Assembly (NCBI GenBank): GCA_902618175.1 | Contig: CACMZN010000002.1 | Span: forward strand, 1 to 64,000 | Origin: an uncultured Verrucomicrobiota bacterium | GTDB lineage: Bacteria; Verrucomicrobiota; Verrucomicrobiia; Opitutales; Seribacteraceae | Length of the DNA: 64,000 nucleotides | Reading direction: 5' to 3' | Part shown: positions 34,889-62,174 of the stretch, in pieces | Layout of the letters: each line of letters opens with the position of its first letter | Numbering within the stretch: position 1 is the first letter of the stretch | Made by a program: the position numbers and the translations under genes | The notes under the pieces: generated by a model | Database searches by the model: none | The model's input: only the letters and a program-made list of their open reading frames with translations | Told to the model about the DNA's origin: nothing

Positions 34889-35173
34889 GTGATTATGGAC
34901 AAAAAAGAAATTGAATTGAAATTACAGTCCTTGGATGGATGGATATGGGAGGAAAATAAACTAAGGAAAAAATTTCATTTTTCCTGTTTTAGAGAAGCCA
35001 TGAGTTTTCTGTTGCGTCTATCCTATGAAGCGGAGTATCAAAATCATCATCCGGAGATTTTCAACTGCTTTGACCGAGTCATACTCAGTTTGTCCACTCA
35101 TGATGCAGGGAACAAAGTAACCAATAAAGATTTTGATCTGGCAAAAGCAATCGATGGGTTGGATAAGAAATGA
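34889..35173 (+). CDS. 4a-hydroxytetrahydrobiopterin (pterin-4a-carbinolamine) dehydratase
   Basis: LDGWIWEENKLRKKFHFSCFREAMSFLLRLSYEAEYQNHHPEIFNCFDRVILSLSTHDAGNKVTNKDFDLA. Confidence 0.92.
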   Translation: MIMDKKEIELKLQSLDGWIWEENKLRKKFHFSCFREAMSFLLRLSYEAEYQNHHPEIFNCFDRVILSLSTHDAGNKVTNKDFDLAKAIDGLDKK

Positions 35174-35188
35174 AGTAAAGTTGATTTT

Positions 35189-36703
35189 CTAATCTGTTTT
35201 TTTCTTTTTTGCCTTTTGGATCAGTGGGCGAGTATCTTTTGGGACTTGATATAAACTTCGAAGTCGATTCAACTCGGCTTTCAGTTCTTCGGATATTCGA
35301 GCATAGTCAGGGTCATCATATACAGAATGAAGTTCATGAGGGTCTTTAACCAAGTCGTAGAGTTCCCACCCATCCAGCATATAGAAATAAATCAGTTTAT
35401 GAGTTTCCGTTCTTACGCCATAGTGACGGCGAACACTATGACCACCTGGAAATTCATAGTATTGATAATAAAGCGATTTTCGCCATCTCTTTGGATTTTT
35501 TCCCTTTAGGAGGGGAACAATCGATTGACCTTGCATTTCTGGTGGAGCTTGCACTCCGCATATATCTAAAAAGGTCTCAGCATAGTCTAAATTTTGAACG
35601 AGTTTGGAATTCTTGCTCCCAGGTTTGGTGATGCCGGGCCAGCGAACAAGGAGAGGAGTTCGAAAAGATTCCTCGTACATCCACCGCTTGTCGAACCAAC
35701 CATGCTCTCCAAGATACCAACCTTGATCGGACGAATAAACGACCACTGTGTTATCGGCAAGGCCTGATTCGTCGAGGTAGTCTAATATGCGTCCAACTCC
35801 TTCATCCACTGAGTCTATGCATCGCAAGTAGTCCTTGGCGTAGCGTTGGTATTTCCATTTCAAGAGGGCATCTCCAGATAAGCCGGCATCTTCAAAAGCC
35901 TTGTTTTTAGGACCGTATGCAGCATCCCATGCAGATTTCTGTTCGGTAGTCAGATTCCTGGGAGGATTTAACTTTAGATCATTGTTGGTGAGATGACGGT
36001 CAATGGTCATGGATTGGGTTGATGCAGGAACAAGCCGATTTTGGTAGTCGTCCCTCAGAGTATGTGGTTCAGGAATCACCACACCATCATATTTATTGAG
36101 GTATTGAGGACCGGGTTGCCAGTTCCGGTGTGGTGCCTTGTGCTGGCACATGAGAACAAATGGTTGATCAGGGTCTCTTTTGTGTCGAAGCCAATCTAAA
36201 GTGACTTCGGTAATGATATCCGTAGTATATCCAGTTATTTTATCGACACTTTTGGAAGTCTTCATGGGAGGATTGTAGTAGGGCCCTTGCCCCAGCAAAA
36301 TTTGCCAAAAATCGAATCCGGTGGGATCGCTCTTCAGGTGCCATTTGCCTACTAATGCAGTCTGATATCCATTTTTTTGAAGTAATTTGGGAAATGTTTG
36401 CTGTTCCCCGTCAAAACGCTCTCGATTGGTGAGTTGTCCATTTAAATGACTGTGTTTGCCAGTCAATATGACTGCACGACTCGGAGCGCAAATCGAATTG
36501 GTAACAAATGCCCTTTCAAAAAGCATACCTTCCTTGGCAAGACGATCGATATTAGGAGTATTATTGCGGTTCGAACCATAAGCAGAAATGGCCTGATAAG
36601 CATGATCGTCCGCAAATAGAAAAAGAATGTTTGGATAATTTTCTTCTGCAATGATGGTCAATGGCAAAAGCGAAGAAAAGAGTATGGACAGTTTAATTTT
36701 CAT
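35189..36703 (-). CDS. sulfatase (type I, CxPSR)
   Basis: [78 protein letters not shown]; signal-peptide start at 36703. Confidence 0.93.
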
Positions 36704-56675: not shown

Positions 56676-57488
56676 TTAATTGCTTTCTGACCTGTGCGAC
56701 ATTAAGGCAGGATTTCCCATAATCCACAACCCTTGGAATGAGACCCTTCCTTTGTGATCGAAGGATATGCCAAAGCCATTTTCATTACCGGTTTTGAAAT
56801 TACCCAGATAAACTTCTCCTGAACGCAGAGTTTTTTTTCCGTAACCATTAGGTTTCCCTCCTTTGATTTGGCCATGGTATTTGGAACCATCGGCTAAAGT
56901 TATCCTGCAATATTCTCGTTCCTTTGGTAAAACGATTGAGTTGGTTGCAAATATGGAAACAATTGAAATTTCCTTTCTTAAGGAAGAAACCTTTGATGAG
57001 AGGGCATCTTTTTCCACCAAAGTTAATCGTTCTTTCATGCTTTTTACTTTCCTTACCAAATTACGATCCGAATTTTTTATCACGGCAAGGGATAAATACG
57101 CACAGGCACTCAATAAATCGTCTTTTTTTTGGTGAAGAATGGAAAGATACTCGAGTGATTTGCCATCATCCAACCTTGCCCCTTTCAAAAGCCACTCTCT
57201 TGCTCTTTCCAAATTAATTGGCATGCCTAGACCATAAAGAAAGGATCGTCCGATGAATCTACAAGCTTGAGGATGGTTTTGCTTTGCTGCCCTTTTCATC
57301 CAATACAAGGCTTTCGTTTGATTTTTTTGAAGACCGTAAGCAAATTTGGACCCTTGTATGAATTGATATTTTCCACTTTCTTCCCACGTCAAATCATGAG
57401 GTTGGCTTTTTCCATAGTTGTAAGTGAACAAAAAGACGGCAGGGATACCCCACAGACCAAAGAAAATTCCTGGAAACGAAGAAATCAT
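56676..57488 (-). CDS. Sel1-repeat plus MORN-repeat protein with N-terminal TM/signal
   Basis: TKALYWMKRAAKQNHPQACRFIGRSFLYGLGMPINLERAREWLLKGARL (Sel1); KYHGQIKGGKPNGYGKKTLRSGEVYLGNFKTGNENGFGI (MORN). Confidence 0.8.
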   Translation of the reverse strand: MISSFPGIFFGLWGIPAVFLFTYNYGKSQPHDLTWEESGKYQFIQGSKFAYGLQKNQTKALYWMKRAAKQNHPQACRFIGRSFLYGLGMPINLERAREWLLKGARLDDGKSLEYLSILHQKKDDLLSACAYLSLAVIKNSDRNLVRKVKSMKERLTLVEKDALSSKVSSLRKEISIVSIFATNSIVLPKEREYCRITLADGSKYHGQIKGGKPNGYGKKTLRSGEVYLGNFKTGNENGFGISFDHKGRVSFQGLWIMGNPALMSHRSESN

Positions 57489-57493
57489 AACTT

Positions 57494-58315
57494 TTACTTG
57501 GATCCCAATATTCGACGGAGAAAGCTTCTTTTTGGTGAGACTGAAGGAGAATTTTCGCGTTTTGATTTTCGACCATCGGGCTTAGGTCCAAATTTCCACA
57601 TTTGCAGGTTTTCATTTGTCGTGGCGTCTCCAATCAATGCATCATATTTTCCCTTCATCTTGAGTTCTTGTACATACACTGAAAGCCCAATTTGATCAAA
57701 ACTCGGCAATATGGAGGGATAGGCATTAATCAGACGACTGGATTTCAAAAGAAGCATCAGATCAATATCGAATGCATTTCCAAAATAGGTAGGATTCCCA
57801 ATCACAAGCAGCATCCTTCCTCCCAGGGTCTCATGGTCACCTCCAGCAACAGTTGAAATCCTTCCGTCTGCTTCAACGGGAATAAATTTAAATCCACCAT
57901 TCTTCGTAGCTTCTATGATTATGGTACCCTTTCCCTCAAAGGTCGCATTCGAATCAAAGCTGGAAAAGTTTATTTTGGTAGGTTCTTTTGTACAGAAGAG
58001 GGCACTGCCCGAATGCAACCAAAAATCCGTCGAGGAAAACCAACGACAAACACTTTGGCTACCCAATCTCCAAATATTAGAATCTTGAATAACCTCAGTC
58101 CGGGATCCTTTACCAGTGGTTATAACGTTATGAGAAAGTATGGAAGCATTTACTTCCAGATCATCAAGAGCATCCGTTCCTTTCTTATGAATGTTGATCA
58201 GATCTACTTTTCCATTCACATAGGAAACAACCAGTGGATTTTCGCCCAACAAAAAAATCGCCGCTGAAAAAACAGCGGCGATTATGAAAAAGTAGAATTT
58301 TTTAGAAGCCAGCAA
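57494..58315 (-). CDS. FecR-like secreted/anchored protein
   Basis: N-terminal signal; VVSYVNGKVDLINIHKKG...VITTGKGSRTEVIQDSNIWRLGSQSVCRW (FecR-like). Confidence 0.65.
   Translation of the reverse strand: MLASKKFYFFIIAAVFSAAIFLLGENPLVVSYVNGKVDLINIHKKGTDALDDLEVNASILSHNVITTGKGSRTEVIQDSNIWRLGSQSVCRWFSSTDFWLHSGSALFCTKEPTKINFSSFDSNATFEGKGTIIIEATKNGGFKFIPVEADGRISTVAGGDHETLGGRMLLVIGNPTYFGNAFDIDLMLLLKSSRLINAYPSILPSFDQIGLSVYVQELKMKGKYDALIGDATTNENLQMWKFGPKPDGRKSKRENSPSVSPKRSFLRRILGSK
58251..58283 (-). terminator. intrinsic terminator-like hairpin inside the 5' coding region of the FecR-like gene
   Basis: On minus strand AATCGCCGCTG-TTTTTT-CAGCGGCGATT-TTTTT; 11-bp perfect stem with T-run. Confidence 0.7.
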
Positions 58316-58318
58316 TCT

Positions 58319-59353
58319 TTAAAAACGACTGTTCAGGCCAATCCCTGCACCCACATCCCAGTTCTTGTAATCATAGTCGTCGCCATGCTCGCCACCATCT
58401 TTGTTTTGGCCGCTAACATCACGTTTGGTGTAACCGGTGTAGAGACTGAGTTTAAGTGAATCTGCGATCAGGTAGTCAATTTTGAAAGAAAAGACATGCG
58501 AGATATCAGATCTGCCAATATTGTCTCCCTCATCATAATCTTTGTAAATAATCTTGTATTTCGGACTCAACTTGGCCTTACCGTAATCATACGAGACCCC
58601 GTAAGATGCAGTAACTTCGAGATTACTGAGAGCATCTTCCGTATCTCCTTCAAATACAGGTTCCGTTTCAGAAGAATGAAACCCAAGGGATGCATCGAAT
58701 ACACCAGTGGTATCTTCATTAATCGAGTAGGCTCGAAGAACTCCAACATTTGGAAATACATCCTTGAAATCCTCGGTGTCAAACTTGGTACTACGGTCTA
58801 TAAGATAGTTGACACCGATACGTGCTGACCATCCATTGGCGAATTGATTAAGAAGAAGGGCATATGCTCCGGTTGAATTGTAATTAAAATCTCCAAGATC
58901 ACCTTCCAAATAGTCGTTAATGGTCCAATTTGCACCAATATAGGGTGTCAATATGGACTCACCCATGTCAAAAACACCAAGCCCAGCACCAGTGTAAAAA
59001 GTATTGGTCCACATTGCGGTTGCTGACTGTCGGAGGGGTCCATTCGTAGACAGTGGGTTGGATCTGTAAAAATATTTGCTGTCATAACCAAAAAAAGCTG
59101 AAATTCCATCCTTATTGAGTTGGACTGGTCTTTGAGCACCCGTGTCGCTTTCGGAAAGTTCGCCATCAGAGGAATCCTCACCGGTTTGCGTTATTGCGCT
59201 GGGAAGGAGAGCATCGCTTCGATCAGTACCCTCAATGCGAGACCTTACATCTGTGTTGCTAGCTTGAGACCACAAAAGGGAAGAAGAAAGCAACAACGCA
59301 ATAAGTTTGAATTTGATGTTCATGATTGATGGTATCCGAGTAATTAATTTCAT
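58319..59353 (-). CDS. outer-membrane beta-barrel-like protein
   Basis: Signal peptide MNIKFKLIALLLSSSLLWSQA; alternating amphipathic beta-strands, C-terminal ...WDVGAGIGLNSRF ending in aromatic residue; start may be 59323. Confidence 0.75.
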   Translation of the reverse strand: MKLITRIPSIMNIKFKLIALLLSSSLLWSQASNTDVRSRIEGTDRSDALLPSAITQTGEDSSDGELSESDTGAQRPVQLNKDGISAFFGYDSKYFYRSNPLSTNGPLRQSATAMWTNTFYTGAGLGVFDMGESILTPYIGANWTINDYLEGDLGDFNYNSTGAYALLLNQFANGWSARIGVNYLIDRSTKFDTEDFKDVFPNVGVLRAYSINEDTTGVFDASLGFHSSETEPVFEGDTEDALSNLEVTASYGVSYDYGKAKLSPKYKIIYKDYDEGDNIGRSDISHVFSFKIDYLIADSLKLSLYTGYTKRDVSGQNKDGGEHGDDYDYKNWDVGAGIGLNSRF

Positions 59354-60480
59354 TGGCCACGAATTTTGACAGCGGGTGTGCCGTTAGGCAATACGATGGT
59401 GGAGTCGATGTGTCCAGCAGGTCCGTTATCAAAATGATCTCTTGCCAAGGTGGTACCTCCATGTGAGACATTTGTAAGGTTGACACCACCAACGACTTTG
59501 TTCGCGTATGTGTCAAAATGTAAGGTACCGTCTCTAGATCTGAGCATAACATCAGCAGTAGAAGGGAAGGCGACGTTGTTGAGGTTGATGGTGATCGCTT
59601 CCATGTAAACGTCGTCCAATCTGCTGCCGGAAAAATTTAGACCATTCACTTGTATGAGGTCACTTGCGTAAAGATAAACATTATCCGGGTCGGAGTTACT
59701 GCCCCCGTTCCCAACCATAAAATTGGCGTTGGATATATTAAGTGTACCAAGTGTTCCAGCCGCTAAGTTTCCGCCCGCGGTAATGGTGGTATTCACCAGA
59801 TACATGCTGTCAGAATCAGTTCCCCCAGCTCCTAATGCAAGATTCGAACCTGTGTAGGACAAAGATTTTCCATCCATAATCAAATCATCCGCAGAACCAA
59901 TTACGAGCGCATGATCCTCCACATCATTCGAATTGGTGAAAGTTGTATCACCTGCGAATCCAATGTCCTTGGCAGCCCCAATAACTAAGATCTTCCTGTC
60001 CTCATTGGAGTGAGCTTCGGGTAAGTAATTGGACACATCCACCGAAGAAACTTCCGAGGAGTCACCGATGGTAATGGTTGATCCAGGTATAAGAGTTATG
60101 TTGTCAGTGGACACGTCAAATACACTTGAAGTGGAATCCTCATCGGAAAAAGTTCTCGAACCCGTCAAATCGGAGAGGAACTGCATATAGTCTGCGGTTG
60201 ATCCCATTATGGTGAGAATACCTCCTTCGCCTTCGGCATAGCCTGATCCGAGCACTGCATCGGCAAGGGCGGATCCATTTGAACCAATCGCCCCGTAGGC
60301 AACGAGAATTCGGGCTAATTCGTAAGTGTATGCACTTGAGATGCCTGCTTTGGAAACAGGATTGGTCAAATCAGTAGATGATTTGATAACCTTGTCGGTG
60401 AGGAGCGTGTCGGCCAATTGCGCGGCATTGACAAGAGCGGTGTTGAAGGAGTCATCTTGTACCAAAGAATTGTCGAACAC
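59350..60480 (-). CDS. C-terminal part of frameshifted repeat-containing surface protein
   Basis: Same frame is open upstream through the 39-bp repeats (DDTTDDATDDTV...VVVTDPIYAYPAELLDIDNPDVIAAAELVFDN); GTG at 60480 is probably not the real start. Confidence 0.7.
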   Translation of the reverse strand: MFDNSLVQDDSFNTALVNAAQLADTLLTDKVIKSSTDLTNPVSKAGISSAYTYELARILVAYGAIGSNGSALADAVLGSGYAEGEGGILTIMGSTADYMQFLSDLTGSRTFSDEDSTSSVFDVSTDNITLIPGSTITIGDSSEVSSVDVSNYLPEAHSNEDRKILVIGAAKDIGFAGDTTFTNSNDVEDHALVIGSADDLIMDGKSLSYTGSNLALGAGGTDSDSMYLVNTTITAGGNLAAGTLGTLNISNANFMVGNGGSNSDPDNVYLYASDLIQVNGLNFSGSRLDDVYMEAITINLNNVAFPSTADVMLRSRDGTLHFDTYANKVVGGVNLTNVSHGGTTLARDHFDNGPAGHIDSTIVLPNGTPAVKIRGQ

Positions 60481-60512
60481 GAGTTCTGCTGCTGCAATAA
60501 CGTCCGGATTAT

Positions 60513-61985
60513 CTATATCAAGAAGTTCTGCTGGATATGCGTAGATGGGATCGGTGACAACGACATCGTCATCAACAACCGTGTCGTCGGTGGCGTCGTC
60601 CGTGGTGTCGTCAGCGACCGTGTCGTCGGTTGCGTCGTCGGTGGTGTCGTCAGCGACCGTGCCGTCGGTGCGTCGTCGGTGGTGTCGTCAGCGACCGTGT
60701 CGTCGGTGGTGTCGTCCGAGACCGTGTCGTCGGTATCATCGACAGGATCACTGATGACTACTTCAGTCACACTTTCCTCAATCTCATCAGCCGTAGCACC
60801 GGATTCAACCAACTCAACGACCTCAGTCAAATCCTCACTGCTGGCACCCGATTCAACCAGATCGATGACGCTCGTCAATTGATCTATGGAGGTGTCTTCA
60901 TCAATCAAACCAACAACATCAGCAACTGCATCTATATCAATGACATCTGAAGTTGCTACAAGTGCAGTTATTGTAGATAAGGCAGTTTTGTCGGAGACAA
61001 GGGTTGTTAGAGCCGTTGTGTCAAGCCCAGCTGCGGAGAGAGCCGTAATGTCGGTTCTTGCATCTGCGTCGGCGACCAAGGCGGACAAATCAGTCACGGC
61101 AAGCCCAGCTGTGGAGAGAGCCGTAATGTCGGTTCTTGCATCTGAGTCGGCGACAAAGGCGGTCAAATCAGTCACTGCTAGCCCAGCTGTGGAGAGAGCC
61201 GGAATGTCGGTTCTTGCATCTGTGTCGGCGACTAAGGAGGTCAGGTCAGTTGCGGCAAGTCCGGCAGTGGCAAGGGACTTGATGTCAGTTCTTGCGGTGT
61301 CGTCCGCAACCAGAGTGGTAACGTCGTCCAACGCAAGTTCATCAATGGAGACTCCAGCAGCCACAATAGTACTCAAATCGCTGATGGCAGTAGTGTCGGT
61401 GGCGAGACTGTCGATATTAGTAACGGAAACGCCTTTGTCTGCCACGTCGCTTACAAGTGAAATGGAATCGGAGTCCAAAACGGCTAGAGATTTAACGGAG
61501 TCCGTGGTGACACCTTTGCTTACGACAGAAGAGAAATCAGTGAAAGTTTCGGTATTCATATCCTTCATTCCAGTGACCGCATCGGTGTCTTGGGCAATGG
61601 TTACGAATCCTGCCGCACCCTCGCTTACAGCTGAGGAAAGAGAAACGATCTTAGTGGCTTCCAAATCTTCGATGTTTGCCCGTACCGTGGTGTCGGCAAC
61701 AACGGTTTTGAATCCGGTTCTTCCAAAAGAAGCAACCGCTTTCAAGGTGGTCCTGTCATATGATAGTGCCTCAGCACCGAAGGTTGCGAACCCAACGGCA
61801 ACTTCGTTGCTTTCAAGAGCTTCAACCGGTTTAAGGGCAGGTTGAGAAGCTGATCCGGTTACGGAAGCTTCGGCAGCTGATTCACCGCCTCCACCACCAC
61901 CAGAATCGGGCTGGCCCAGTAGGGTTGTGTATGAGAATGCCAGGCACGACAAAGCCTTCAAAGAGTAAATATAGATGTTTTTCAT
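60513..61985 (-). CDS. N-terminal part of frameshifted repeat-containing surface protein
   Basis: Signal peptide MKNIYIYSLKALSCLAFSYTTLLGQ; Ser/Thr/Asp/Ala-rich 26-aa repeats; C-terminal ~45 aa after DDTTDDA (PTARSLTTPPTTQPTTRSL...) are out of frame. Confidence 0.7.
   Translation of the reverse strand: MKNIYIYSLKALSCLAFSYTTLLGQPDSGGGGGGESAAEASVTGSASQPALKPVEALESNEVAVGFATFGAEALSYDRTTLKAVASFGRTGFKTVVADTTVRANIEDLEATKIVSLSSAVSEGAAGFVTIAQDTDAVTGMKDMNTETFTDFSSVVSKGVTTDSVKSLAVLDSDSISLVSDVADKGVSVTNIDSLATDTTAISDLSTIVAAGVSIDELALDDVTTLVADDTARTDIKSLATAGLAATDLTSLVADTDARTDIPALSTAGLAVTDLTAFVADSDARTDITALSTAGLAVTDLSALVADADARTDITALSAAGLDTTALTTLVSDKTALSTITALVATSDVIDIDAVADVVGLIDEDTSIDQLTSVIDLVESGASSEDLTEVVELVESGATADEIEESVTEVVISDPVDDTDDTVSDDTTDDTVADDTTDDAPTARSLTTPPTTQPTTRSLTTPRTTPPTTRLLMTMSLSPIPSTHIQQNFLI
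60578..60735. repeat. 39-bp tandem repeats (3 copies plus partial), encoding A-D-D-T-T-D-D-A-T-D-D-T-V
   Basis: Copies 60578-60616, 60617-60655, 60656-60693 (38 nt: one base missing), degenerate copies beyond. Confidence 0.9.
61024..61320. repeat. 78-bp tandem repeats (3 near-identical copies plus a diverged one), encoding 26-aa units
   Basis: AGCCCAGCTG... starts at 61024, 61102, 61180 and diverged at 61258; exact 78-nt spacing; protein STAGLAVTDLTAFVADSDARTDITAL. Confidence 0.92.
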
Positions 61986-62090: not shown

Positions 62091-62174
62091 TGCCGAGGGC
62101 GAGATTCGAACTCGCACATCCTATCGAATACTAGAACCTGAATCTAGCGCGTCTACCAATTCCGCCACCCCGGC
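62091..62174 (-). tRNA. tRNA-Leu (anticodon CAG), CCA not encoded
   Basis: GCCGGGGTGGCGGAATTGGTAGACGCGCTAGATTCAGGTTCTAGTATTCGATAGGATGTGCGAGTTCGAATCTCGCCCTCGGCA; long variable arm. Confidence 0.96.

Follow-up and report, generated by a model that had tools for sequence, protein, structure and literature searches.

A single gene for a repeat-rich, putative surface protein is split into two open reading frames (ORFs) on the minus strand of the window, which is the whole 64,000-nucleotide stretch analysed here and belongs to the draft genome of a marine Opitutia (Verrucomicrobiota-type). Its reading frame is broken by a deficit of one base in one copy of a tandem repeat whose regular unit of 39 bp keeps the frame. 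This isolated deficit is very probably a one-off event and not a switch. Both ORFs were present in the ORF list as the sequence-only reading had claimed (Table 1), and its view that they form one gene was borne out by related genomes, in which the gene is a single ORF in 19 cases, and by a sharp switch of the coding frame.

The N-terminal ORF encodes, in order, a signal peptide, a Gly/acidic stretch, an AAEASVTGSASxP motif, and 78-bp (26-aa) and other degenerate repeats. When the C-terminal ORF was used as a query against 57 related genomes, strong matches were obtained in the same genus and family. In at least 19 related genomes or contigs (L003-L014, L017, L019, L032, L040, G013, G058 and G035:C28), one ORF of ~470-1,400 aa holds both this signal-peptide start and this C-terminal domain, and its conserved ends enclose a repeat-built middle of very variable length. 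The ORF of these 19 opens with a signal peptide and then a motif close to AAEASVTGSASxP...ESNP, as does the N-terminal ORF here; the N-terminal alignment took in 14 relatives. The gene order in most relatives is aroC, a gene of 237 aa, tRNA-Leu(CAG), the surface-protein gene, a barrel gene, a FecR-like gene, a Sel1 gene and porB/porA. Since both conserved ends lie in one ORF in the relatives and the neighbourhood is shared, the two ORFs are one gene. The nearest relative is ~63% identical in the C-terminal domain. A search of genome contigs for same-species or near-identical sequence returned 10 loci, the best at 61-62% identity, and no such sequence was found among viral contigs or plasmids. 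One of the contigs with an intact gene (L032, NZLM01000110.1) is filed under a Euryarchaeota MAG and carries the aroC, 237-aa, surface-protein and barrel genes of Opitutia; it is probably a contaminant of that MAG.

Table 1. Features of the split gene and its neighbourhood (positions within the window)
Feature	Position	Strand	Evidence
tRNA-Leu (CAG), conserved upstream neighbour of the cassette	62091..62174	minus	L001 4242-4325
N-terminal part of surface-protein gene (ATG start, 490 aa)	60513..61985	minus	ORF list, repeats, 14-relative N-terminal alignment, frame scores
In-frame 78-bp repeats of the N-terminal part (TDLTxLVADxDARTDIxALSTAGLAV)	61022..61351	minus	Tandem Repeats Finder
39-bp tandem array, Asp/Thr-rich linker (DDTVADDTTDDAT)	60578..60718	minus	Tandem Repeats Finder, unit listing
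38-nt copy with the frame break, one base short between 60670 and 60669	60664..60701	minus	Unit listing, frame scores
C-terminal part of surface-protein gene, conserved domain (ORF proper 59350..60480, GTG start, 376 aa)	59350..60561	minus	ORF list, relatives' matches, structure model
Outer-membrane beta-barrel gene, 344 aa, ends ...NSRF	58319..59353	minus	Relatives' alignment, structure model, PDB matches
FecR-like protein gene, same cassette	57494..58315	minus	FecR domain fusion in L018
Sel1/MORN-repeat protein gene adjoining the cassette	56676..57488	minus	Domain search, neighbourhood comparison

The 39-bp array is 141 bp long with near-identical units, and it is far from chance (Tandem Repeats Finder: period 39, 3.6 copies, 92% matches, 1% indels, score 240). 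In minus-strand order, it consists of a partial unit of 27 nt (60728-60702), the 38-nt unit, two units of 39 nt (60663-60625 and 60624-60586) and a diverged end. The unit listing thus placed the missing base where the sequence-only reading had seen one copy fall short, near 60669. The unit after the short copy starts with the triplet GGC where the others have GAC, and this second private difference in the array is compatible both with mutation of the array and with a poor consensus. As had been described, frame 0 reads DDTTDDA, leaves the frame at ~60669, and continues as PTARSLTTPPTTQPTTRS to a stop at 60515-60513, while the -1 frame reads DGTVADDTTDDATDDTV...DPIYAYPAELLDIDNPD and runs into the C-terminal ORF. 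Codon usage was scored in steps of 120 nt after training on seven neighbouring genes; frame 0 was preferred in every scoring window as far as 60666 and frame -1 in every one from 60665, indicating that the frame break is sharp and located in the 38-nt unit. Both frames are open together over a long overlap, from 60690 to 60515. The regular unit equals 13 codons, so the reading frame is kept when whole units are gained or lost. No other copy of the DDTTDDATDDTVA array was found in the same genome and no convincing copy among 26 congeners; one relative (L009) has a different Asp-rich/acidic linker at the same place, in frame. Homopolymers of at least 4 nt are absent from the overlap of the two frames and those of at least 6 nt from the whole gene, and the overlap contains neither an X XXY YYZ slippery heptamer nor a poly-A/T tract.

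Three other readings of the split were considered. One possibility raised in the sequence-only reading was slippage-based phase variation, in which case the array would be an ON/OFF switch caught in the OFF position; changes of whole 39-nt units could not work it, but the frame would shift if recombination removed or multiplied the 38-nt unit. A tandem repeat in a surface protein, with one copy whose length is not a multiple of three, agrees with this, but the regular unit is 39 nt, there is no short-unit or homopolymer tract, and the array was found in this genome alone. Slipped-strand phase-variable genes are recognized by a frame-altering unit or homopolymer and by a tract that is conserved or recurrent in relatives; here neither was found, and frame-changing arrays are absent from this place in the relatives. 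Recombination through the 38-nt unit is a theoretical route, and we consider phase variation very unlikely. Programmed ribosomal or transcriptional frameshifting could in principle join the halves, given the long overlap and the -1 shift that joining needs, but the transition has no slippery site that could be conserved, and the relatives are single-frame; this reading is extremely unlikely. Taken together, the 13-codon unit, the missing homopolymers and slippery sites, and the absence of the array from close relatives leave both phase variation and programmed frameshifting unsupported. That the ORFs are two independent genes is suggested by the mechanical ORF list, but the second ORF lacks a signal peptide, and its GTG start is not matched in the relatives. 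Relatives encoding two separate proteins, which would have spoken for this reading, were looked for; all of them join both parts in one ORF, and the probability of two genes is practically negligible.

The whole contig was scanned for frame breaks against the relatives' ORFs, covering 86.8 kb and 89 of the 102 ORFs. Three further places were flagged, of which only dnaX was credible as a frame break. The signal at 34964-35577 was an antisense shadow, and birA/coaX at 98.78 kb are two overlapping genes here that are fused in one relative. The dnaX gene (contig C2 64336-65813, L087), just beyond the right end of the window, is a known recoding gene. Its frame breaks at a poly-A run, which is A11 here (around 65435-65445), and the C-terminal part of tau continues in another frame, whereas seven relatives have an A10 run within one open frame. 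Transcriptional slippage and a homopolymer error are both possible. With one other credible break over 86.8 kb, the sequence appears good in general.

What remains is one gene with a one-off break, and the cause would be either a consensus error in the repeat or an indel that recently inactivated a dispensable gene, at about equal odds; these correspond to the other two possibilities of the sequence-only reading, a sequencing or assembly error and a recent pseudogene. If the consensus or assembly is at fault, the copy is regular and the gene intact in the living organism, and it is the draft that miscounts the bases in the repeat; we give this close to an even chance. The genome is a draft (94 contigs, 67% complete), the lesion lies inside the array of near-identical units, and the one further break that the contig shows, which could likewise be an error, sits at a homopolymer in dnaX, an essential gene. 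Misassembly of repeats usually alters whole units rather than single bases, which argues against an error, as does the lack of indels over the scanned 86.8 kb besides the dnaX run. At columns that are invariant otherwise, the C-terminal half has 4 private changes, compared with 1-3 in most relatives, and its end branch is 0.40 against a median of 0.35. This is no relaxed constraint, and it agrees with an error. For frameshifts that are validated by homology and occur in one genome only, sequencing error is moreover the expected cause in most cases (Antonov et al. 2013, PMC3711429).

The other cause, a real deletion that recently turned the gene of this strain or species into a young pseudogene, has a considerable, though less than even, chance. 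The surface-barrel-FecR cassette is cleanly absent in the congeners G015 and G017, where the tRNA-Leu and Sel1 genes lie side by side; loss of the surface-protein gene is thus tolerated, and the gene seems dispensable. The remaining contig, which looks accurately sequenced, also favours a real deletion. Two other loci are frame-broken in the cassette and point weakly the same way. One is in G060, whose contig C2 (L060) is 97.4% identical to the intact G058:C12 (L059). The 12.7 kb compared contain 26 gap openings, which cluster in the surface-protein, FecR-like and Sel1 genes and are absent from aroC, porB and porA; these indels may be either gene decay or a locally poor consensus. The other, G016:C8/L041, has several breaks in the surface-protein and barrel genes. 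However, both loci have many clustered indels and may belong to error-prone contigs. Against a pseudogene also stands the state of the locus itself, as the gene shows no further stop or indel beyond the frame break and the barrel and FecR-like genes are intact in this assembly. The gene is truncated here while its homologues in the 19 relatives are intact, as in a pseudogene, but relaxed constraint and further lesions were not seen. As the C-terminal half is free of decay, the lesion is either young or artefactual; a mutation of very recent date would also leave this half undecayed.

If translated as assembled, the gene would yield an exported N-terminal fragment with an out-of-frame tail of 51 residues rich in Pro, Thr and Arg and with no conserved domain, while the C-terminal domain would have neither a signal peptide nor a credible start. 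Gene callers will accordingly list two hypothetical proteins where relatives carry one, and the short copy should not be taken as phase variation.

The downstream genes give a hint of what the intact protein may do. The barrel protein has a C-terminal phenylalanine in every aligned relative, and the relatives suggest a start of its gene at 59323. Its model has ~12 strands, with autotransporter translocators as the best PDB matches (TM 0.45-0.5) and CymA-type porins close behind. The adjoining FecR-like protein had no match in Pfam, including the FecR domain (PF04773). In one relative (L018, G035:C2), a single protein combines a FecR domain (PF04773) with the C-terminal domain of the surface protein, which ties the FecR-like gene to the surface protein. 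Within this family the cassette keeps its place beside the tRNA-Leu, except for its absence in G015 and G017; in G021, a FecR-like gene is on the opposite strand at a contig end. Scans for promoters and terminators gave results at chance level. The C-terminal domain of the surface protein was modelled as a beta-strand-rich, solenoid-like fold, confident from ~residue 155 (mean pLDDT 78). It had no match in the PDB by sequence and no significant one by fold, no significant match in a viral fold library was obtained, and no Pfam or NCBIfam model matched the protein family.

The intact product is best described by its parts: a signal peptide, a repeat stalk of variable length, an acidic linker and a conserved beta-rich C-terminal domain, which together would make an exported repeat-rich surface protein that probably works with the outer-membrane barrel encoded directly downstream. 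The simplest reading is a stalk-and-head protein displayed at the surface and held or exported by the barrel. The designation as a surface protein in the sequence-only reading stands as far as the signal peptide and the adjoining gene for an outer-membrane-type barrel carry it; surface location itself is conjectural. A bolder proposal is that the cassette of a repeat-stalked beta-solenoid protein, a 12-strand barrel and a FecR-like protein forms a split system for secretion or display in marine Opitutia that has not been described before, with the 38-nt unit as an OFF state reversible by recombination that drops this unit; we regard this as highly improbable. A protein family without a Pfam or NCBIfam model, in a conserved but losable cassette, is a modest lead on the cell surface of marine Opitutia.

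Frame transitions in single genomes, when validated by homology, are expected to be sequencing errors or recent indels (Antonov et al. 2013, GeneTack; PMC3711429). The case described here resembles these singletons in that the break occurs in one genome only and the relatives are intact and single-frame, but differs in that it lies inside a coding tandem repeat; the repeat-associated class therefore had to be excluded, by unit length. With slipped-strand phase-variable surface proteins of the Neisseria and Haemophilus type it shares a tandem repeat inside the reading frame of a surface protein, but the unit is a multiple of three, and there is neither a short-unit tract nor a conserved frame-changing repeat. 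Surface proteins with in-frame, length-variable coding minisatellites are similar in that the 39- and 78-bp units both keep the frame and the length of stalk and linker differs strongly among relatives; the one unit that is off by a base sets the present gene apart. The ~12-strand modelled barrel next door and the beta-rich C-terminal domain recall autotransporters of classical type V secretion, such as the beta-domains of Hbp, EspP and NalP, but the structural likeness is partial (TM about 0.5, with CymA-type porins alike), and the passenger-like protein and the barrel are encoded here by separate genes.
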